DNA of 64,000 nucleotides from Pseudotamlana haliotis (GTDB lineage: Bacteria > Bacteroidota > Bacteroidia > Flavobacteriales > Flavobacteriaceae). Position numbers and translations under genes: made by a program. A model generated the notes under the pieces. It had not been told where the DNA came from. It worked only from the letters and a program-made list of their open reading frames with translations, and made no database searches. Each line of letters opens with the position of its first letter. Positions within the stretch are counted from its first letter, which is position 1. Below, one piece after another: positions 8,366 to 59,098 of this stretch. The stretch spans positions 62,001 to 126,000 of the forward strand of contig NZ_WAAT01000052.1 in the NCBI RefSeq assembly GCF_008806375.1. Direction: 5' to 3'.

Positions 8366-9226
8366 ATGGCAAATTTAAAAGAAATACGTAACAGAATATC
8401 ATCGGTATCTTCAACGATGCAGATTACCAGTGCCATGAAAATGGTATCAGCTGCTAAGTTAAAGAAAGCCCAAGATGCTATTACAGGAATGCGTCCGTAT
8501 TCAGATAAGCTTACTGAACTTTTACAAGGTTTAAGTGCGACTTTAGAAGGCGCTTCTCAAAGTAAATATTCTGAAGAACGTGAGTTAAAAAAAGTACTTA
8601 TTGTCGCTATAACGTCTAATAGAGGTTTGGCGGGTGCTTTCAATGCAAATATTATTAAGGAGGTTAACAGACTAACATCTCAAAAATACGCTAACCAAGA
8701 AGTATCGTATTTAACTGTTGGTAAGAAGGCTTTTGATGCTTTCAAAAAAACCGATAGAGTTATAGCCAATGAAAGTGAGCTTTATGACGACTTAACTTTT
8801 GAAAACGTAGCTGTAATTGCAGAATCTTTAATGGAGAAATTTGTTGAAGGTGAGTTTGATAAAATCGAAATCGTATATAATAAGTTCAAAAATGCTGCAA
8901 CTCAAATTGTAACAACTGAACAATTTTTACCTATTGTTCCTGTTGAAGTTGAAGAAGATACTGATACTTTCTATATTTTCGAGCCATCACAACATGACAT
9001 TATCGAGCAATTAATTCCGAAGTCTTTAAAAACGCAATTATACGGTGGTATTAGAGATTCGTTTGCTAGTGAGCACGGTGCACGTATGACAGCTATGCAT
9101 AAAGCAACCGATAATGCTACAGAATTAAGAGATCAACTTAAATTAACATACAACAAAGCACGTCAAGCGGCTATTACTAACGAAATCTTAGAGATTGTTG
9201 GTGGTGCTGAAGCTTTAAATAACTAA
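8366..9226 (+). CDS. atpG: F0F1 ATP synthase subunit gamma
   Basis: The start is set at the ATG of MANLKEIRNRI, the conserved N-terminus of gamma subunits. The in-frame GTG 9 nt upstream lies inside a G/C-block repeat and is less likely. The 286-residue product has the N-terminal helix that enters the alpha3beta3 head and the matching C-terminal helix (TDNATELRDQLKLTYNKARQ region). It forms the rotating central stalk. A terminator follows about 35 nt after the stop, which ends the atp transcript. Confidence 0.95.
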   Translation: MANLKEIRNRISSVSSTMQITSAMKMVSAAKLKKAQDAITGMRPYSDKLTELLQGLSATLEGASQSKYSEERELKKVLIVAITSNRGLAGAFNANIIKEVNRLTSQKYANQEVSYLTVGKKAFDAFKKTDRVIANESELYDDLTFENVAVIAESLMEKFVEGEFDKIEIVYNKFKNAATQIVTTEQFLPIVPVEVEEDTDTFYIFEPSQHDIIEQLIPKSLKTQLYGGIRDSFASEHGARMTAMHKATDNATELRDQLKLTYNKARQAAITNEILEIVGGAEALNN

Positions 9227-51975: not shown

Positions 51976-52020
51976 TGACATTACATGTCGCATAAAGCAT
52001 GGGTCAATTGGGGTAATTTT
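51976..52020 (+). promoter_or_regulatory. Promoter A of the GACAT regulon
   Basis: GACATTACATGTCGCA (51976-51991) contains the perfect inverted repeat GACAT-N3-ATGTC. Exactly 21 nt later stands TAATTTTG (52013-52020), a perfect TAnnTTTG box. No TTTG occurs at -33. Transcription should start near 52025 and read the 42-aa gene at 52093. Three more promoters have the same layout. Confidence 0.7.
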
Positions 52021-52092
52021 GGGGTATAATAATTATAGAAAGTCAAAGCGATTTGTTTTAAGTCGATTGCTTTTTAATTAAACCTCAATGTT

Positions 52093-52221
52093 ATGAATAC
52101 TTTAGAAGTCAACAATGAAACTGAAATTTTAGGATACAATTTATTTAAAATTACGTATTTAACCTTATTTGTGTTTAGTTTAAGTGCTCTTACCATACAT
52201 TTATTACTAAATGGGTTTTAG
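52093..52221 (+). CDS. 42-residue single-helix membrane protein
   Basis: An ATG at 52093 opens a frame of 42 residues: a polar N-terminus (MNTLEVNNETEILGYN), then one membrane helix (about 19-38) ending in a short tail. The frame is enclosed between promoter A and a strong terminator at 52252-52288, so it is an independent unit. Similar mini membrane proteins often act as regulators of membrane complexes, but I do not recognise this one. The two flanking genes are on the other strand. Confidence 0.65.
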   Translation: MNTLEVNNETEILGYNLFKITYLTLFVFSLSALTIHLLLNGF

Positions 52222-52251
52222 TAAGAAGAAGAAAAATTAATTTATAATTAT

Positions 52252-52290
52252 AAAAAGCTCCTAAAAGTTTAACTTTTAGGAGCTTTTTTT
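52252..52290 (+). terminator. Strong terminator after the 42-aa gene
   Basis: AAAAAGCTCCTAAAAGTT and AACTTTTAGGAGCTTTTTTT form a long near-perfect stem with a T-tract. A-rich upstream sequence makes it bidirectional, so it can also end the arsenic operon on the minus strand. Confidence 0.9.
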
Positions 52291-52314
52291 AGGAATATAA
52301 TGATTCCCTTTATG

Positions 52315-53373
52315 TTATGCTTTTTTAAGCTTCTTGTTGAAGTATTTTTTTCGTAACCAAAAGGATACGCGCACTAATAGTATTAAGGCGGGTACTTCTA
52401 CCAAGGGGCCAATAACCCCTGTGAAGGCTTGCCCAGAATTGAGTCCGAAAACCGCAATAGCTACGGCAATAGCTAATTCAAAGTTATTTCCGGCAGCGGT
52501 AAAAGCAACTGCAGCGGTTTTATCATATTCTGCACCCATGGCTTTTGTAAAAAAGAAGCCAATAATAAACATCAGGGCGAAGTAAATAAGTAAAGGCACT
52601 GCAATGATTAATACATCCATTGGGATTTCAACAATCAATTCCCCTTTTAGTGAAAACATCACAACGATAGTAAATAGAAGCGCGATTAAAGTTAAGGGCG
52701 AAATCGCAGGAATAAATTTATTGTTGTACCAATCTTCACCTTTTAATTTTACCAAGACCACACGGCTTAAAATTCCTAAAAGAAAAGGAATACCTAGGTA
52801 TATCGCAACACTTTCAGCAATGGTAGCAATAGAAATATCTACGATAGCGCCTTCAAATCCGAAATAAGGAGGTAAAACCGTAATAAAAATCCAGGTGTAG
52901 AAGCTATAAGCAAATACTTGGAAAATACTATTTAAGGCTACTAATCCAGCGCCGTATTCTGCATTTCCTTCCGCAAGGTCATTCCAAACTAAAACCATGG
53001 CGATACAACGGGCTAAACCAATAAGAATGAGCCCTACCATGTATTCTTCTGGGTAATCGCGTAAAAAGGTTATCGCTAGGAAAAACATGAGTACAGGACC
53101 CACAATCCAGTTCAGAATCAGGGAAATCGACAAGATTTTGGTGTTTTTAAAAACCTTTGGAAGTAGGGCATAATTCACCTTGGCAAGTGGCGGATACATC
53201 ATTAATATGAGTCCGATTGCTATAGGAATATTTGTTGTGCCAACGCTAAATGAGTTTATAACATCTGGAAAAGAAGGTGCAAAATACCCAATACCAACTC
53301 CTAGGGCCATGGCTAAAAATATCCAAAGCGTGAGGTAGCTGTCCAGAAAACTTAATTTTTTAGGAGTAGCCAT
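52315..53373 (-). CDS. acr3: ACR3 family arsenite efflux protein
   Basis: The 352-residue membrane protein has about ten helices and the signature [19 protein letters not shown], whose cysteine in helix 4 is needed for arsenite transport in ACR3. It exports As(III) from the cytoplasm. It is the last gene of the operon arsR-DUF6428-arsC-ACR3, and starts 3 nt after the arsC stop. Confidence 0.93.
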
Positions 53374-53376
53374 TAA

Positions 53377-53997
53377 TTAAGAATTTTTTATTTGATTGAA
53401 TACATAAAAGAGTTCACCTGCTATTTGTAAGCTTCTTTCGTTATATTTTTCTGCCTGTTGCGGTGTGTTGTCAAAAGCCTTTGGGTCTTCAAAAGTCAAC
53501 GGAATTCGTTTTTCAGCACCGGCAATAAATGGACAACCATTATCGGCTTGTGAGCAGGTCATGATGGCCGCAAACTCAGAAGACGGGTTGAATTTAGCAT
53601 CCAACTTTTTAGAAAAACCAATAATTGGGTGTGCGTTCTCTGCGTATTTAATGCTGTACACCGGGTTTTTTCCTTCGGAAAGGGTTTCTATTTCAAATCC
53701 AGTATTGCTTAAAGTTTCAGCAGCCATTGGGAAAAGTGCCGTGGCTTCAGTTCCGCCAGAATAACAAAATACATTTTTGATGTTAAAATGATAAGCCAGC
53801 GTTTGTGCCCAAACTTGTGATAAATGACTACGGCGTGAGTTATGAGTACAGATAAAGTTGATGCGAATATCTTGATTGGCATCTACTTTGGCTTGTATAA
53901 AATCGATAAGTGGTTGTAAAGTTACTTTACGTTCTTCTGAAATACCTTCAACGTTTAATGTTGAAATTCTGCTTTCAATGTTCTTAAAAAGGCTCAT
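53377..53997 (-). CDS. arsC: Arsenate reductase, low-molecular-weight phosphatase type
   Basis: The start was set at MSLFKNIESRI; an upstream in-frame ATG (54063) overlaps the previous gene and adds a non-conserved leader. The 206-residue protein has the phosphate loop FICTHNSRRSHLSQ with C50 and R56, and the resolving pair C148/C155 in TCSQADNGCP, spaced C-x6-C as in thioredoxin-coupled ArsC. Arsenate is reduced to arsenite through the three cysteines, then exported by ACR3. The N-terminal ~40 residues are an extension not found in the small ArsC forms. Confidence 0.9.
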   Translation of the reverse strand: MSLFKNIESRISTLNVEGISEERKVTLQPLIDFIQAKVDANQDIRINFICTHNSRRSHLSQVWAQTLAYHFNIKNVFCYSGGTEATALFPMAAETLSNTGFEIETLSEGKNPVYSIKYAENAHPIIGFSKKLDAKFNPSSEFAAIMTCSQADNGCPFIAGAEKRIPLTFEDPKAFDNTPQQAEKYNERSLQIAGELFYVFNQIKNS

Positions 53998-54049
53998 TTT
54001 TATTTGATTGTATTTAATGAATGATTGCGCGGGTTTTGTGGTATTGGGC

Positions 54050-54517
54050 TTAGCAACAACCACTGCCAGGTGTGCAGGAGTTGGCAGTGTTGAATTCAGA
54101 GAATTTTATTTTTGGTTTCTCTTCCGGAATACCACAGTTGTCTTTCGCAAGGCAATCGGTTTGCTTGGTGGTAAGTAGAAAGTTGGTGCCGTCAAAATCT
54201 AATCCATATTTACCAATGGTTGTATCTTGATATTCTACTTCAATTTCTAAATCACCTATTTCAAGGGTTTTTTCTGAAAGTTCTATAATGTGTAGTAACT
54301 TCTCTGGGTGTAATCTGTGATCATAATCATTGGCATTCCAAAGTTGAAAATTAACAACTTCTTCTTGTCTAACTGTGCCGCCACAGTCTATGAAATGTTT
54401 GGTGATTTTACCAACTTCAGTGACATGAAAATGGCTTGGCACTAAGGTTCCGTTTGGTAATTGAAAACCAATTTGTTCTAAATTTTCGAGTTTGTTTTTT
54501 ACTTCTGAAAGTGTCAT
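54050..54517 (-). CDS. DUF6428 family protein of the arsenic operon
   Basis: The 155-residue protein has HFHVTE near residue 29 and the Cys-rich end SCTPGSGCC. I recall this family beside arsR/arsC in Bacteroidota, where it may bind arsenite or copper-like metals through the terminal cysteines; its function is not established. It lies 47 nt after arsR, with a second ArsR-like operator in the gap. Confidence 0.7.
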   Translation of the reverse strand: MTLSEVKNKLENLEQIGFQLPNGTLVPSHFHVTEVGKITKHFIDCGGTVRQEEVVNFQLWNANDYDHRLHPEKLLHIIELSEKTLEIGDLEIEVEYQDTTIGKYGLDFDGTNFLLTTKQTDCLAKDNCGIPEEKPKIKFSEFNTANSCTPGSGCC

Positions 54518-54531
54518 AACTATATTGTTTT

Positions 54532-54547
54532 ATTGCGATATCGCGAT
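54532..54547 (-). promoter_or_regulatory. Second ArsR-type operator (before DUF6428 gene)
   Basis: ATTGCGATATCGCGAT matches 13 of 16 bases with the operator upstream of arsR. It lies about 15 nt before the DUF6428 start and 17 nt after the arsR stop, giving a possible second control point within the operon. Confidence 0.55.
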
Positions 54548-54564
54548 TAATGAGTATAAATTTT

Positions 54565-54897
54565 TTAGCAACAATCTTGTTTATTAGGGATGTCTTGGTC
54601 TAAAAACTCCGACATTACCGTTTTCATCGTAGCCCATTTTTCGTGGTTAATGCAGTAGCAAACGCTAGTGCCTTCAACACTACCTTTTATAAGTCCTAAT
54701 TGTTTGAGTTCTTTGAGATGTTGTGAAATGGTAGGCTGTGCCAAGCCAATTTCGTTGACTAAGTCACCACAAACACAAGAGTTTGTTTTAAACAAGTATT
54801 GTAAAATAGTCACACGGGCAGGATGACTAAATGCTTTTGAAATTAAAGAAATTTCGTTTTGTAAATCGGTGAACATTTCTGTTTTTGCTAATCCCAT
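54565..54897 (-). CDS. arsR: ArsR-type arsenic-responsive repressor
   Basis: The 110-residue winged-helix protein has the arsenite-binding pair C41-V-C43 in NSCVCGDL and the recognition helix in AQPTISQHLKELKQLGLI. It also ends in a Cys pair (QDCC). In the absence of As(III) it represses its own operon. The operator ATTGCAATATTACGAT lies 19 nt upstream of the start and overlaps the presumed promoter end. Confidence 0.92.
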   Translation of the reverse strand: MGLAKTEMFTDLQNEISLISKAFSHPARVTILQYLFKTNSCVCGDLVNEIGLAQPTISQHLKELKQLGLIKGSVEGTSVCYCINHEKWATMKTVMSEFLDQDIPNKQDCC

Positions 54898-54915
54898 GAG
54901 TGTTTCTATTTGTTC

Positions 54916-54931
54916 ATTGCAATATTACGAT
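54916..54931 (-). promoter_or_regulatory. ArsR operator upstream of arsR
   Basis: ATTGCAATATTACGAT is an imperfect inverted repeat next to a TATATTTA -7-like box (minus strand), where a bound ArsR would block transcription. It is the same element as at 54532-54547. Confidence 0.6.
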
Positions 54932-55036
54932 AAATATATGGAATGGTTGATTGTTTTTGTATTAAATTTTCATATTGTTTTTTCATTTAGTTGATAACTA
55001 GAATTTTAAATGGTTGTCTCGAATGATTTAAAACAA

Positions 55037-55071
55037 AAAAAGCTGTTGTAAAGAAACTTACAACAGCTTTA
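55037..55071 (-). terminator. Terminator of the YtxH/holin-like operon
   Basis: AAAGCTGTTGTAA and TTACAACAGCTTT form a perfect 13-bp stem around a short loop; on the minus strand a T-tract follows. It lies about 30 nt after the 68-residue gene. Confidence 0.88.
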
Positions 55072-55103
55072 TATTTTAAAACACCTTTAATTGAAGTCGT
55101 CAT

Positions 55104-55310
55104 TTACCTCTTAAAAATTTTCCTGAGTATATATTTTGTTGAGTAATTTGTTACCAACCATCTTAAATTTGTAGGAATCCAATTTACAGGATTTAAACTC
55201 TCGGTATAATCTTGTTTTAATGTTTTAAATTCTTCTAGGGCGATTTTACGTTCTAAATCTAAAATTTTTAAATCGCGTTCCAAACTGTCTGTATCTTTAT
55301 ATGTTTTCAT
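55104..55310 (-). CDS. Small protein of unknown function in stress-type operon
   Basis: The 68-residue protein begins with a charged amphipathic helix (SLERDLKILDLERKIALEEFK) and ends basic. No family is recognised. It starts 1 nt after the stop of the holin-like gene, so it is co-translated with it. It likely forms part of a membrane-associated complex with the two upstream proteins. Confidence 0.65.
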   Translation of the reverse strand: MKTYKDTDSLERDLKILDLERKIALEEFKTLKQDYTESLNPVNWIPTNLRWLVTNYSTKYILRKIFKR

Positions 55311-55311
55311 A

Positions 55312-55659
55312 TTAATTAAAAAACTTTTCAGAAAGGGTTCTCACTATAAAATTACTTATATGTTTTCTGAGCATATAAGTAATTAAGGAAATTAAAACAA
55401 AAAAGGCGCCTACAATTAAAAAGCCATGGGTATAGTTACCTAAAGCCTTACCAATAAGAAATGCCACTGCAATAGCTATAAAAGTTAAACCAAGCAATAA
55501 CATACTTCCTATAAGCAAGGTTTTAAAAACGATACCAAATGACGTGGTTAATTGCTGAAATATTTTTAGTCTATAGTACTCGTAAGTCGTATGAAAAAAC
55601 TTTTCACTTACTGCTTTTGCTTTTTTATTAGTACCGGCTAAAGAGTCGTTTAAACTCAT
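55312..55659 (-). CDS. Phage-holin-superfamily-like membrane protein (PF07332-like)
   Basis: The 115-residue protein has two membrane helices (about 43-65 and 72-98) separated by a tight turn and a charged N-terminal half. This layout matches the holin-superfamily III proteins, which in non-phage settings accompany YtxH proteins in stress operons. No prophage genes are near, so a lysis role is unlikely. Confidence 0.65.
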   Translation of the reverse strand: MSLNDSLAGTNKKAKAVSEKFFHTTYEYYRLKIFQQLTTSFGIVFKTLLIGSMLLLGLTFIAIAVAFLIGKALGNYTHGFLIVGAFFVLISLITYMLRKHISNFIVRTLSEKFFN

Positions 55660-55665
55660 AAATGT

Positions 55666-55995
55666 TTATGATTTTTGTAAATTTTTATTCTTCTCTTTAA
55701 GATCCTTTAGTTTTTTCTCAAGTGTTGAAATCACATCTTCTGCTTTATAACTTACATCAGTCATAATAGATTCTACATGCTCATCTAAACTTTTTTTCTG
55801 AGTAGATGCTGTGCTTAAGGCTTGCTCTTTTAACTCATGGGCTAAGTCTGAAATCTTGTGTTTAGCCGTATCAGCTTCATCACTTAAACGTTGTCTTGTA
55901 TTTACCCCTTTATCTGGAGCAAATAAAATTCCTAAAACGGCTCCAATAGCTGTCCCTGCTAAAAGTCCTAAAAAAGTGTTACCATTATCATTCAT
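55666..55995 (-). CDS. YtxH domain protein
   Basis: The 109-residue protein has the YtxH start FLGLLAGTAIGAVLGILFAPDKG (one membrane helix at about 6-25), then a long charged coiled coil. YtxH proteins are general-stress proteins in many bacteria; their molecular role is unknown. It is the first gene of a three-gene minus-strand operon. Confidence 0.8.
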   Translation of the reverse strand: MNDNGNTFLGLLAGTAIGAVLGILFAPDKGVNTRQRLSDEADTAKHKISDLAHELKEQALSTASTQKKSLDEHVESIMTDVSYKAEDVISTLEKKLKDLKEKNKNLQKS

Positions 55996-56165
55996 AATAT
56001 TAATGTTTTAAAAGTTAATGCAATACAAGAATACAATATACGAAATGATTTAATGATTTAAAAGAATTTCAAGCACTAAAGTAAGTGTTTACTTGCTTTA
56101 AAAATAAATCAATAGCGATCTTCTTGTGTAGAGTAAATGTATGGCATCACGGTGCTATGACCGCC

Positions 56166-56210
56166 GACATGTAATGTCGCACTGACAGCTAGTATATTCG
56201 GTTAATTTTG
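56166..56210 (+). promoter_or_regulatory. Promoter B of the GACAT regulon
   Basis: GACATGTAATGTCGCA (56166-56181) holds the perfect repeat GACAT-GTA-ATGTC, then 21 nt, then TAATTTTG (56203-56210). Transcription should start near 56215, giving a leader of about 18 nt before the ATG at 56233. Confidence 0.7.
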
Positions 56211-56232
56211 TCTGAAAATAAAACAGACCATT

Positions 56233-56655
56233 ATGGTAAATATACTAAGAAATAAGCGACACAGGTTAGGTGTAAAATCGAATTCAGACTTTCCAACATA
56301 CCGTATGGATTTAAATAATGAACAGTTAGAAGCTATGGTGCATACCTTTTTAATGGTCATGATGGCCGATGATGCTGTTTTTAATTTGAATATGTACAAT
56401 TATATTCAAGAACAGTTTGAGTCATTAAGCTTTAACATTAGAGAGGCCTATGTGCACAAATTTGCTCCTAAAGCCGATGAGCAAGCCTATGAGGTTCTTC
56501 GTGAATTAAGCGATACCCAAAAGGTATGGTTTGCGACTGCTATTTATGGTATGCTTTACCGATTAGGTGATACGCCTTCAGAGCTACAAGCTAAACAATA
56601 TAATATTGTAAGAAAAAAGGCGTTGAATACTTATATGAAGGAAGTGACACTCTAA
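56233..56655 (+). CDS. Unknown helical protein, first gene of a GACAT-regulon operon
   Basis: The 140-residue soluble protein is mostly helical. The part VHTFLMVMMADDAVFNLNMYNY has a weak TerB-like look (acidic DD after a hydrophobic helix), but this is not enough to assign it. It follows promoter B closely and precedes the 185-residue gene by 8 nt. The N-terminus is basic (NILRNKRHRLG), which could hint at nucleic-acid or membrane contact. Confidence 0.6.
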   Translation: MVNILRNKRHRLGVKSNSDFPTYRMDLNNEQLEAMVHTFLMVMMADDAVFNLNMYNYIQEQFESLSFNIREAYVHKFAPKADEQAYEVLRELSDTQKVWFATAIYGMLYRLGDTPSELQAKQYNIVRKKALNTYMKEVTL

Positions 56656-56663
56656 ATTTATTT

Positions 56664-57221
56664 ATGAAGTTAACCGCATTATCAGCATTTAAAAATCTTC
56701 AAAAGGGCGGACTGTTTTGTTTTAAAGAGATAAAACAGTGGCTACTAGATTATGATGCCGATTTTAAAGATGTAAAATACAATTGGCATTGTCCTAATTC
56801 TGGTTGTCAGCATAAATTTACCGGTTGCTGTACCTGTACTTCAAATCATGAGGCCTACCTTTTTATTAGCCTTTATGAACAGCTGCTTGAGTTTTCATAT
56901 TATCATAAATACGAAGCTTATGCTTTTGATGAATTGGAGGATTTTGAGGCCGTAAAAAATGATGAAACTCAAGTGAAAGTCTGGGTGATTAAAAACGAAA
57001 ATATTGCTGGAAATGCCTGTTTTGAGTTTTTAATGAATTACTATAGTTATAGCGATAACCCTAGGAATTTATTAGTTGTTGATTATCAATTACTCGGCTA
57101 CAATGTATTTGTAAATCAAGAATTTTTCAAGTCACTTATACAATTCTTACAGACTTTTGATGAACTTTTTTGGGTCCAAAAAATATATCCAGAAAGTGAT
57201 ATTTTGTGTGTTTTTGATTAG
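56664..57221 (+). CDS. Unknown protein with cysteine cluster
   Basis: The 185-residue protein has a compact metal-site-like motif near residue 43: HCPNSGCQHKFTGCCTCTSNH, with six cysteines and two or three histidines within about 25 residues. The rest is rich in aromatic residues (many Tyr and Phe), with no membrane helix. I do not recognise it. It is the second gene of the unit started by promoter B. Confidence 0.6.
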   Translation: MKLTALSAFKNLQKGGLFCFKEIKQWLLDYDADFKDVKYNWHCPNSGCQHKFTGCCTCTSNHEAYLFISLYEQLLEFSYYHKYEAYAFDELEDFEAVKNDETQVKVWVIKNENIAGNACFEFLMNYYSYSDNPRNLLVVDYQLLGYNVFVNQEFFKSLIQFLQTFDELFWVQKIYPESDILCVFD

Positions 57222-57310
57222 AGTACTTGCTGTATAACCAACGACCAAAACTGGGATGTCATTATTCTAAACTTATATAAAGTTATTGAATCTTCCAGTT
57301 TAGTGATGAG

Positions 57311-57331
57311 ATGCTGAATCAAGTTCAGCAT
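57311..57331. repeat. Short extragenic hairpin (ATGCTGAA type)
   Basis: ATGCTGAA-TCAAG-TTCAGCAT forms an 8-bp stem between the converging unknown gene and XRE regulator gene. It may serve as a 3'-end hairpin or be a dispersed palindrome. Confidence 0.5.
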
Positions 57332-57378
57332 GACGCCCTTCTTTCATTAAAGCACTAAATTGACCACCGTTTAGAAAG

Positions 57379-58254
57379 TTAATCGTCAAATAAAAAATGA
57401 TTAAAATTGCCTTCAATAAATCGAGGCGGATAATCTAAATTCAATTGCTCCTGTAGGACTTTATCTTCCCAAACATTTTTGAGTCCGATTTCTAAATTCA
57501 GATCGTAATTATCATCGCGTTCGGTATAACCGCATAGCACATAGTTTTTGTTTTTTAAATCTCTAAAATATCTAAAAAATTGTGCCATGACATAAAAAAT
57601 GGTTTCGTTGCAATCACCTGTAATATCATATCTATAATAGATAGGACGCTCCATGTGGCTAGGGTCAATTAAATCACTTGCCCTTAAATCTTTATTGGTA
57701 ATTTCGCGATTTCGTAGTTTCTGGTATGTCGCTTCATTAAGCGGTAAAACAATACAGTGCCCAGCATAATAGCCTGTTTTTCCTGTATAAACAAAGTTTA
57801 GTTCTGGTAATAGCCTAACTGCTTCACTAATTAAATCGTTATTTACATAAGTATCATCTTTATGCTGAGAATCTATAAAGTGATCAATGTGTTTTAGATC
57901 TAGGTCACAATCAATAGTCCTTATATTTTGTGTAATTAGATCGATTTGATCTTTATACCAAGCTAAATTTGGTAATTCAGTACTTTGTTCGGAAAGTGAA
58001 AATTTCCTCGTTTTAAAACTATAATACGTTGGTATAGGTACAGTAGCATTCAGATTATGAATGAGTTGGTAGGGCATTAAAGTAGCTAGTACAATATCTT
58101 CTTCTTTTTCAGATTTCACTAGGGTTAAGTTCTTTTCCCAGCGCTGAATGGTTCTTAAGTCAACCTTAATACTAGCAGCAAAATCACTTTGTGACAGGTC
58201 GTTAAATTCGCGATAATCACTAAAGAGTTCGCCTATAGAATAATATCTTTTCAT
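57379..58254 (-). CDS. XRE-type HTH regulator with unknown C-terminal domain
   Basis: The 291-residue protein has an N-terminal helix-turn-helix (residues 9-52; SQSDFAASIKVDLRTIQRWE holds helices 2-3). The remaining ~230 residues are a mixed alpha/beta domain I do not recognise, with GDCNETIFYVMAQFFRYFRD and CGYTERDDNYDLN, possibly a sensory or acetyltransferase-like fold. The gene is divergent from the two-gene unit at 58391, and the GACAT element C lies 44 nt upstream of its own start. It is the best local candidate for the protein that binds the four GACAT elements, but that is inference. Confidence 0.75.
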   Translation of the reverse strand: MKRYYSIGELFSDYREFNDLSQSDFAASIKVDLRTIQRWEKNLTLVKSEKEEDIVLATLMPYQLIHNLNATVPIPTYYSFKTRKFSLSEQSTELPNLAWYKDQIDLITQNIRTIDCDLDLKHIDHFIDSQHKDDTYVNNDLISEAVRLLPELNFVYTGKTGYYAGHCIVLPLNEATYQKLRNREITNKDLRASDLIDPSHMERPIYYRYDITGDCNETIFYVMAQFFRYFRDLKNKNYVLCGYTERDDNYDLNLEIGLKNVWEDKVLQEQLNLDYPPRFIEGNFNHFLFDD

Positions 58255-58297
58255 TAGTTGGTTAAAATGGTGACTAAATATACTAAAAATTCATCAT

Positions 58298-58342
58298 GAC
58301 ATTTCGTGTCGCATTCATAATCGGTATGTGTACTTAAATTTG
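58298..58342 (+). promoter_or_regulatory. Promoter C of the GACAT regulon (divergent region)
   Basis: GACATTTCGTGTCGCA (58298-58313), 21 nt, then TAAATTTG (58335-58342). On the opposite strand the same element sits upstream of TATATTTA (58282-58275), a -7-like box for the XRE gene, so binding may activate one side and limit the other. Confidence 0.7.
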
Positions 58343-58390
58343 CACAAAGGATAAAACCCTTTAATATAGGTTGTTTTAATACCAATTGTG

Positions 58391-58639
58391 ATGAATCAAA
58401 ATATTGAAAGTGACAAATATAGGCCAATTACGCCATTTGAGCGTAGTATTTTCTTATATCTGCATATGTTGTCTAAACATAGAAAGCATGATTTATACGG
58501 AATGGCACCAGCTTTGTCAAGTGCATTTTTTATTTCTTTAGAGGAAGCAGAAACTTTACTCGCGCAATGGATGATGAATTTTAGAGATGATGGACAGTAT
58601 CATATGATTTATGCAACTAAGGAGTCCCTACATGAATAG
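58391..58639 (+). CDS. Unknown 82-residue protein, GACAT-regulon operon
   Basis: The protein is helical and soluble, with MAPALSSAFFISLEEAETLLAQWMMNF in the middle. No family is recognised. A GTG 3 nt upstream is an alternative start. Promoter C ends 48 nt upstream, and a second small gene follows after 19 nt. Confidence 0.6.
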   Translation: MNQNIESDKYRPITPFERSIFLYLHMLSKHRKHDLYGMAPALSSAFFISLEEAETLLAQWMMNFRDDGQYHMIYATKESLHE

Positions 58640-58658
58640 TAAAAATTAAATATTTAAG

Positions 58659-58898
58659 ATGTATATGCTTTTACATAAATTAAGAGAAATAGAAAACGGT
58701 ATTAGAGACGAAGGCGCTTCAAATACAAAAGAGTTGATCGCGGCATTAACACTGAAGGATCTTTTACTACAAATCGATTATAATTCAGAGCATATTTCAG
58801 ATTTTTCGTTAAATAGGATGACTGATTTATTAAATGATTTAAAAGGTGATGATTTGTCTGATGTAGAAGCCTCGTTAGTCAAGCAGCTGTTAGATTAA
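58659..58898 (+). CDS. Unknown 79-residue helical protein
   Basis: The product is a small acidic helical protein (ALTLKDLLLQIDYNSEHISD, LLNDLKGDDLSDVEASLVKQ) without signal or membrane segment. No family is recognised. It is the second gene after promoter C. Just beyond its stop begins the fourth GACAT element. Confidence 0.6.
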   Translation: MYMLLHKLREIENGIRDEGASNTKELIAALTLKDLLLQIDYNSEHISDFSLNRMTDLLNDLKGDDLSDVEASLVKQLLD

Positions 58899-58912
58899 TG
58901 AGAGATGGTTAA

Positions 58913-58957
58913 GACACAGTATGTCGCCATAAAAACCTAAAAGCCTTCGTAAATTTG
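58913..58957 (+). promoter_or_regulatory. Promoter D of the GACAT regulon
   Basis: GACACAGTATGTCGCC (58913-58928), 21 nt, then TAAATTTG (58950-58957). The left half has one change (C for T). Nothing with coding character follows, so it should drive a non-coding transcript starting near 58962. Confidence 0.65.
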
Positions 58958-58961
58958 TAAG

Positions 58962-59098
58962 GTAATAAAAGGAAAGAAAAATATAAGTTTTTAAGATTAG
59001 GGGTTAATTAAAAATTAGAACGGGATTAATAGCAATGAAAGTTTGATTTTTAAGTTTGAAGCGGGTTGCGGAATTTATTTTCGCGGCCCTCTTTTTTG
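58962..59098 (+). ncRNA. Candidate small RNA driven by promoter D
   Basis: Between the expected start near 58962 and the terminator at 59063-59098 lie about 135 nt with no ORF longer than three codons from an ATG. A perfect -7 box, a shared regulatory element and an intrinsic terminator together suggest an independent small RNA. The body is A/T-rich. No known sRNA family is recognised. Confidence 0.5.
59063..59098 (+). terminator. Terminator of the candidate small RNA
   Basis: GGGTTGCG(G)AA pairs with TTCGCGGCCC (one bulge, two G-U pairs), followed by TCTTTTTTG. The T-run exists only in the plus-strand sense, so it does not serve glpD on the minus strand. Confidence 0.7.

Follow-up and report, generated by a model that had tools for sequence, protein, structure and literature searches.

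A predicted HTH-GNAT regulator and fixed-distance operators of a candidate accessory regulon with putative small-RNA output in Pseudotamlana haliotis and related Flavobacteriaceae

We have analyzed a 64,000-nucleotide stretch of the Pseudotamlana haliotis genome (contig NZ_WAAT01000052.1, positions 62,001 to 126,000; "the window"), in which a first-pass annotation had recognized four promoters sharing the element GACAY-N3-RTGTCGC at a constant distance from a TAnnTTTG box. The four elements are probably operators of one accessory regulon, governed by a helix-turn-helix (HTH) protein that carries a GNAT-fold domain, acts as a class II-type activator, represses its own gene and has small RNAs (sRNAs) among its outputs. 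Neither this regulator, the gene for which lies inside the annotated interval, nor the small-RNA output was named in that annotation. As we picture the mechanism, the HTH-GNAT protein would bind GACAY-N3-RTGTC, probably as a dimer, and recruit the ordinary housekeeping polymerase to TAnnTTTG promoters that mostly lack a -33 TTG. Its targets would be small operons adjoining the regulator gene together with the predicted small RNAs, one class of which (class A) would probably pair with the start-codon regions of exported-protein mRNAs and lower their translation; in this way, the regulon would ease the load on the envelope or on secretion.

Direct reading of the window places three of the four elements exactly where they had been reported (56166, 58298 and 58913), the first beginning at 51977 rather than at 51976. 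The 21-nt spacer counted after a 16-nt element is the same as 22 nt after a 15-nt element, and TAnnTTTG follows in all four cases. Chance had been judged very unlikely to produce such a set, and we find that GACAYNNNRTGTCGC occurs four times in the window, always on the + strand, when 0.01 occurrences are expected, with none of 100 shuffles reaching four. The genome-wide scan that had been proposed returns 10 exact matches of the 15-nt element, N22 and the box, these four included, and so reveals enrichment. Each of the four elements is a GACA-N5-TGTC palindrome followed by 24 nt and TAnnTTTG; this relaxed pattern has 13 exact and five one-mismatch copies in the P. haliotis genome (3.35 Mb, 76 contigs), and the control with the backwards pattern gives 1 + 1 matches at up to one mismatch.

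When genes neighboring the elements were clustered for the window and 20 fetched stretches, which together represent the first ten genomes to score positive, one gene family, F1, was found in nine of the ten genomes. Profile searches (E <= 1e-20) detect F1 in 12 of 199 genomes of the family, and the gap-24 composite is present in all 12 of these genomes versus 3 of the 187 F1-negative ones (Fisher 8e-17). One of the three, G116, has two gap-24 sites, and a loose search detects 40 positions of the F1 C-terminus at 8615-8734 of a contig of 8736 bases; because these positions stop at the contig edge, the gene is most likely cut by the contig end. In the other two, G056 and G063, a single site is accompanied by weak HTH matches only, as expected by chance. 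Because F1 had been picked from genomes known to carry the motif, the informative tests are those on the 187 negatives and on three divergent F1 genomes, together with a scan made with the protein only. The divergent genomes (G009, G066 and G188) are without the strict motif, yet their F1 loci still have GACA-N5-TGTC at the same gap. The protein-only scan of named genomes yielded 39 loci in Tamlana, Algibacter, Aestuariibaculum, Hanstruepera, Hyunsoonleella, Jejuia, Polaribacter, Lutimonas, Lutibacter and metagenome-assembled genomes (MAGs), 33 of which have a gap-24 element, or 27 of 33 after removal of six loci from genomes already in the family sample (L100, L104, L105, L111, L114 and L119). 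Searches for the regulator at the order and phylum levels returned the P. haliotis genome only (1 of 346 and 1 of 395 genomes, from 105 and 171 genera, with up to six candidates per genome scored among the matches listed); with so few genera and candidates, they do not bound its range. In genome G025, a second, diverged regulator copy (L098, G025:C1:1665000-1681000) lies about 2.2 kb from a gap-24 element, a possible case of paralogous specificity.

An AlphaFold2 model of the regulator built from 42 sequences (predicted local distance difference test score, pLDDT, of 90; a single-sequence prediction, at pLDDT 39, was useless) has a helical HTH region at its N-terminus, followed by a second domain at about residues 105-291. 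The short N-terminal domain comprises helices 7-17, 22-28, 33-40, 48-58 and 62-68 in a block of pLDDT 89-96, and its residues D32, R34, R38, W39 and E40 are invariant in all 42 homologues, as expected if all of them read the same operator. For the second domain, Foldseek finds GNAT acetyltransferases (best E 1.9e-4), and VIA-align matches GNAT chains with Z 11.1-13.1 and root-mean-square deviations of 3.4-4.5 over 138-169 residues among the 50 matches listed, a listing of GNAT folds alone being no evidence against other folds. No confident match was obtained when solved structures were searched by sequence (best E 0.011). The fold is that of Naa50 and the CurA GNATL domain (Z up to 13.1). Unlike these proteins, however, the regulator has its GNAT domain fused to a DNA-binding region and does not have the usual acetyl-CoA pyrophosphate loop, [QR]xxGx[GA], at the expected place in any of the 42 sequences; three of the 42 match the motif after residue 150, all at 266. 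On this basis, we infer a ligand-sensing or degenerate GNAT domain rather than an enzyme, and the switching signal is perhaps a ligand of this domain.

Spacing and promoter architecture suggest how the protein might act. In the numbering adopted here, TAnnTTTG occupies -12 to -5, as placed for Flavobacterium psychrophilum in the available text of PMC9723704, and the palindrome spans -49 to -37; its centre at -43, near which the first-pass annotation had put it, is close to the -41.5 of class II sites next to or over the -35/-33 box. When any gap of 14-34 nt was allowed in the 199 family genomes, 119 matches were obtained, and 54 of the 62 matches in genomes with the regulator have gap 24, whereas the 57 matches in genomes scored without it are scattered across the range, with four at gap 24. 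In the 39 loci from the protein-only scan, moreover, 79 boxes occur at gaps of 8-44 nt, and 75 of them lie at gap 24. The reported absence of a -33 box also holds, in that TTG starting between -38 and -29 is rare (7 of 109 distinct promoters, or 7 of 111 on a recount with later loci), a count taken on the regulon promoters alone. These 109 promoters in the fetched DNA were selected for the invariant letters, so that only the remaining positions of their profile are informative. The profile has A or C at -51 (99/109), C or T after GACA (106/109) and A or G before TGTC (100/109); the promoter side is extended by G at -36 (91/109), C or T at -35 (104/109) and A at -34 (74/109). Position -50 has no clear bias (C or T in 66 of 111), and the right flank GYA therefore has no mirror image on the left; this extension may contact RNA polymerase. 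A purine stands at the predicted +1 in 96 of the 109. Fixed spacing, genome-wide recurrence and co-occurrence with the regulator together give strong support to a regulon with class II activator geometry. The other possibility raised at the outset, that TGTCGC is an alternative -33 element, is made less likely by the retention of both half-sites and by the co-occurring regulator. The same three observations support the earlier proposal of an undescribed regulon as far as "regulon" is concerned; "undescribed" holds within open PubMed Central (PMC) papers and Rfam.

Three other explanations of these promoters were weighed. That the HTH-GNAT protein is a signal-released repressor of them, not an activator, is improbable. 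HTH proteins of such type are frequently repressors, and palindromes adjoining the regulator's own gene are compatible with either sign, but the operator stands just upstream of an intact -7 box in the place of the -33 TTG, and nearly all matches keep one exact distance, a precision that a repressor should not need. We give still less credence to the idea that another protein reads the operator and that the HTH-GNAT gene is merely a frequent target or neighbor. The HTH-GNAT protein is a candidate binder, and four loci have the gene with no recognizable element; nevertheless, F1 is the one family recurring near the elements, gene presence tracks the element across 199 genomes, and the HTH residues are invariant. 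Least probable of all is that TGTCGYA serves an alternative sigma factor as its -33 element, for although the asymmetric extension and a spacing fixed like that of a bipartite promoter would suit one, the upstream half GACAY is also kept, the -7 box remains the housekeeping TAnnTTTG (available text of PMC9723704) and the co-occurring gene encodes an HTH-GNAT protein and no sigma factor.

Activation by the HTH-GNAT protein would probably be combined with autorepression in the window and at about half of the loci, as judged from the position of the palindrome. Of 38 loci examined, 33 have an upstream palindrome, and 15 of these have a TAnnTTTA-like box directed towards the regulator at 16-21 nt from it, including all 11 loci from Tamlana, Algibacter and Aestuariibaculum. 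There the palindrome would lie over the -33 region of the regulator's promoter, a geometry that would give activation in one direction and repression in the other.

Several observations weigh against this account of the regulator. Six of the 39 regulator loci are without a perfect element: L132 has one mismatch, L117 starts inside the gene on a truncated contig, and a recognizable element was not found at L112 and L113 (both Hanstruepera), L126 and L131. In addition, the Pfam HTH_3 match is below the cut-off (17.1 versus 23 bits). The other 18 of the 33 loci with an upstream palindrome, including the Lutimonas/MAG group, likely have the regulator's own box 26-42 nt away, and the overlap with the -33 region is therefore not general. 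Overall, the evidence for the identity of the regulator is good but indirect.

Five of the 13 exact sites in the P. haliotis genome precede protein genes, namely the 42-aa open reading frame (ORF), the 140-aa/185-aa pair and the F27/F2 pair of the window (Table 1), a 200-aa protein with DUF3244 and a GH25 glycosidase-like protein. Small F2-like proteins of about 80 aa occur in 29 of the 39 regulator loci, as detected with a profile drawn from the ORFs of the same loci, and frequently form the first divergent ORF. Downstream of the other eight sites are predicted short transcripts that have a terminator-like hairpin, seven of class A (on contigs C12, C50, C56 twice, C66 twice and C69) and one of class B. 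The fetched loci together supply 27 class A RNAs, and the longest closed ATG ORF is at most 4 aa in 26 of them and 15 aa in the remaining one; the class B pattern is matched by 11 sequences, three of them only weakly alike, and its longest such ORF reaches 20 aa in one of the 11. Tandem class A copies adjoin the regulator at three Aestuariibaculum loci (L106, L108 and L109). Rfam models gave no sRNA gene above the gathering score in the 11 and 10 loci scanned, in which a neighboring tRNA did score, and in a MAFFT alignment of class A the hairpins were poorly lined up. A further conserved RNA-like stretch, class C (TTGATTATAATTTAGTATTTATTTGCCAAAATAATAGGTTAGACACC in Lutimonas), is convergent with the regulator gene where Aestuariibaculum has class A, and follows the second gap-24 promoter, or the sole one, at L120-L124, L127, L129, L133 and L134.

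The core of class A is UUUUUCAUA-N-GUUUGGUU, the complement of which, AACCAAAC-N-UAUGAAAAA, resembles the start of a gene for an exported protein beginning Met-Lys-Lys. A search of the P. haliotis genome for a single guessed target, CCAAACNAACTATGAAAAA, with up to two mismatches found none and was replaced by an energy test over all starts. The sample from this genome covered 0.56 Mb (555,529 bases, including regulon loci and leaving out its own stretch L079) with 429 ORF starts, 99 of them exported. At the exported starts, two real cores each bind better than 100 of 100 shuffled cores (means of -11.57 and -11.50 versus -9.50 and -9.23 kcal/mol), and the difference between exported and other starts is reached by 1 and 0 of 100 shuffled cores. 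Control values of z are -0.6 inside genes, -0.1 upstream and -1.8 at other starts. The core of Aestuariibaculum genome G115, applied to that genome (299 starts, 68 exported), gives z = -6.1 at exported starts (0 of 60 shuffles) and no effect inside (z = -0.5) or upstream of (z = 0.3) the same genes. A preliminary run, with wider windows around the starts and 20 shuffles, gave a less sharp result in the same direction. Well-scoring predicted targets include L151:17579 and L077:9932 in the P. haliotis genome and L171:11600 and L184:12809 in G115. Moreover, each of the 26 folds of trimmed class A RNAs (L036:748 and L136 left out) leaves the core more open than the RNA as a whole; a run on RNAs extending past the terminator gave a mixed result.

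Compositional resemblance might produce such values, and the class A transcripts might act as protein sponges or decoys and not pair with mRNA at all. Exported-protein starts are indeed rich in ATGAAAAA, and tandem copies would also suit a sponge, but dinucleotide-shuffled cores never reach the value at exported starts (0 of 100 twice, 0 of 60 and 0 of 40), where the effect is strongest, being absent inside and upstream of genes. We therefore consider this explanation unlikely, while giving it more weight than any of the alternatives raised for the promoters. Pairing of class A with exported-protein starts has its own difficulties. At non-exported starts, too, the real cores bind slightly better than shuffled ones (z about -2; in G115, z = -2.0, 4 of 60 shuffles), the signal-peptide calls follow a crude hydrophobicity rule, and the CAU triplet is predicted to be open half the time (mean 0.51). 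The class B core, furthermore, has no preference for starts, its 5' part giving a weak difference between exported and other starts (1 of 40 shuffles). Complementarity of the pairing region to exported-protein starts is thus found computationally for class A and not for class B. On these statistics, a pairing function of class A is a well-supported prediction, and repression would be its expected outcome.

The class A core is not confined to regulator-bearing genomes or to promoters with the operator, which also tells against the account given here. Its pattern occurs in 49 of the 199 family genomes (5 matches for the reversed control), comprising 43 of the 187 scored without the regulator and only 6 of the 12 with it. 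As the core occurs without regulator and without operator, the regulon has probably taken in RNAs that belong to a wider sRNA family, and the regulator is likely to be one of several inputs to that family. Sixteen stretches with core matches were read in context. One 26-base version of the core is identical in 29 of the 199 genomes, and three of its loci (L194:1015(-), L195:733(+) and L196:765(+)) are alike, with a promoter box, GGGTGGTTCCCTTAC, the core and a terminator, and no Rfam match; this version is a candidate for a widespread Flavobacteriaceae sRNA having the same start-codon seed. Two core copies of the P. haliotis genome sit behind a different palindrome, ATGACATTTRTCAT, which suggests that a second regulator may drive the same RNA family. 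Copies behind ATGACATTTRTCAT were seen in this and a sister genome at L191:1018(+), L192:1044(-) and L193:2765(-) and 1160(-). Multicopy sRNA-like stretches consisting of AATAGTAAGTTTTTCATATGGTTAGTTTGGTTAG, with variants, and a hairpin terminator were also noted in two Algibacter genomes and in the regulator-negative G169 (L185-L190). At L199, the core match is the antisense of the start of a lipoprotein-like gene, and not every core match is therefore an sRNA.

The sigma-E factor of enterobacteria drives sRNAs (MicA and RybB) that pair near the start codons of outer-membrane mRNAs. The regulon proposed here is similar in that one transcription factor would drive several sRNAs directed at start regions, and differs in that its regulator is no sigma factor and its predicted seed (UUUUUCAUA) complements the start codon itself. 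Controller (C) proteins of restriction-modification systems are HTH regulators that both activate and repress, usually from operators of the form GACTtatAGTC (available text of PMC3115060), which resemble GACAY-N3-RTGTC. Most C proteins, however, work from two operators, and their targets are restriction-modification genes, whereas in the loci read here each promoter has a single palindrome, the regulator carries a fused GNAT-fold domain, and the regulon is dispersed and includes predicted sRNAs. Like the HTH-GNAT protein, XRE-type BswR of Pseudomonas aeruginosa (PMC3985676) and LysR-type VtlR of alphaproteobacteria (PMC7486931) are DNA-binding regulators that act through sRNAs; in the available text, neither is said to carry a GNAT domain or to use a start-codon seed in many copies. 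Rfp18, an sRNA of F. psychrophilum, is predicted to pair with several secreted-protein mRNAs (PMC9723704). Compared by description only, its targets are like those of class A, but it pairs through its third stem-loop, and the available text reports no operator. We found no description of the regulator, the operator or the RNA core in open PMC papers; this absence argues only weakly for novelty.

Little is known of transcriptional activators and sRNA networks in the Flavobacteriaceae. The present analysis supplies a candidate regulator, an exact operator, a list of targets and a pairing code open to experiment; the genera concerned include marine strains in culture. More tentatively, and with somewhat less than even confidence, we suggest that the regulon is a Flavobacteriaceae-specific, sigma-E-independent response to secretion load, in which a ligand-gated HTH-GNAT switch would fire a battery of sRNAs with a common seed complementary to the start codon of exported proteins beginning Met-Lys-Lys and so damp much of the exportome at once, other regulators using the same seed under other operators. 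If true, the start-codon seed would show that whole classes of exported proteins can be controlled by sRNAs in bacteria without Shine-Dalgarno sequences.

Table 1. Features of the candidate regulon in the window (positions are those of the 64,000-nucleotide stretch)
Feature	Position	Strand	Sequence	Remarks
Operator 1	51977..51989	+	GACATTACATGTC	Direct reading; window and genome pattern search
-7 box, promoter 1	52014..52021	+	TAATTTTG	Predicted transcription start ~52026
42-aa ORF behind promoter 1	52093..52221	+		Similar ORF behind same element in L103; no Pfam match
Leftward box-like sequence	56134..56141	-	TACATTTA	Gap 24 from operator 2; one mismatch from box; faces YtxH-like gene 55995-55666 and genes behind it
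Operator 2	56166..56178	+	GACATGTAATGTC	Flanked by divergent genes; direct reading, pattern search
-7 box, promoter 2	56203..56210	+	TAATTTTG	Predicted start ~56215
140-aa protein, family F4	56233..56655	+		Near regulator in 4 genomes; no Pfam family above cut-off
185-aa protein, family F28	56664..57221	+		Behind 140-aa gene; no Pfam family above cut-off
Candidate regulator, family F1, 291 aa	57379..58254	-		Between elements 2 and 3; HTH region (helices 7-40) and GNAT-fold domain (about 105-291)
Probable -7 box of regulator's own promoter	58275..58282	-	TATATTTA	15 nt from operator 3, which overlaps its -33 region; direct reading
Operator 3	58298..58310	+	GACATTTCGTGTC	Between regulator gene and divergent operon; direct reading, pattern search
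-7 box, promoter 3	58335..58342	+	TAAATTTG	Predicted start ~58347
82-aa ORF, family F27	58391..58639	+		ORF list, gene clustering
79-aa ORF, family F2	58659..58898	+		ORF list, gene clustering
Operator 4	58913..58925	+	GACACAGTATGTC	Direct reading, pattern search
-7 box, promoter 4	58950..58957	+	TAAATTTG	Predicted start ~58962
Predicted class B small-RNA gene	58962..59097	+		Behind promoter 4; conserved GGATTAATAGCAATGAAAGTTTGATTTTTAAGTTTG and hairpin, then T6

Two further observations concern individual sites. The genes on the leftward side of operator 2 (window 56134-56178, - strand) are YtxH-like and holin-like, and the single palindrome may serve both directions. At another site, G000:C29:301047-301091 (L014), GACACCCTATGTCG is found with TAAATTTA at gap 24.

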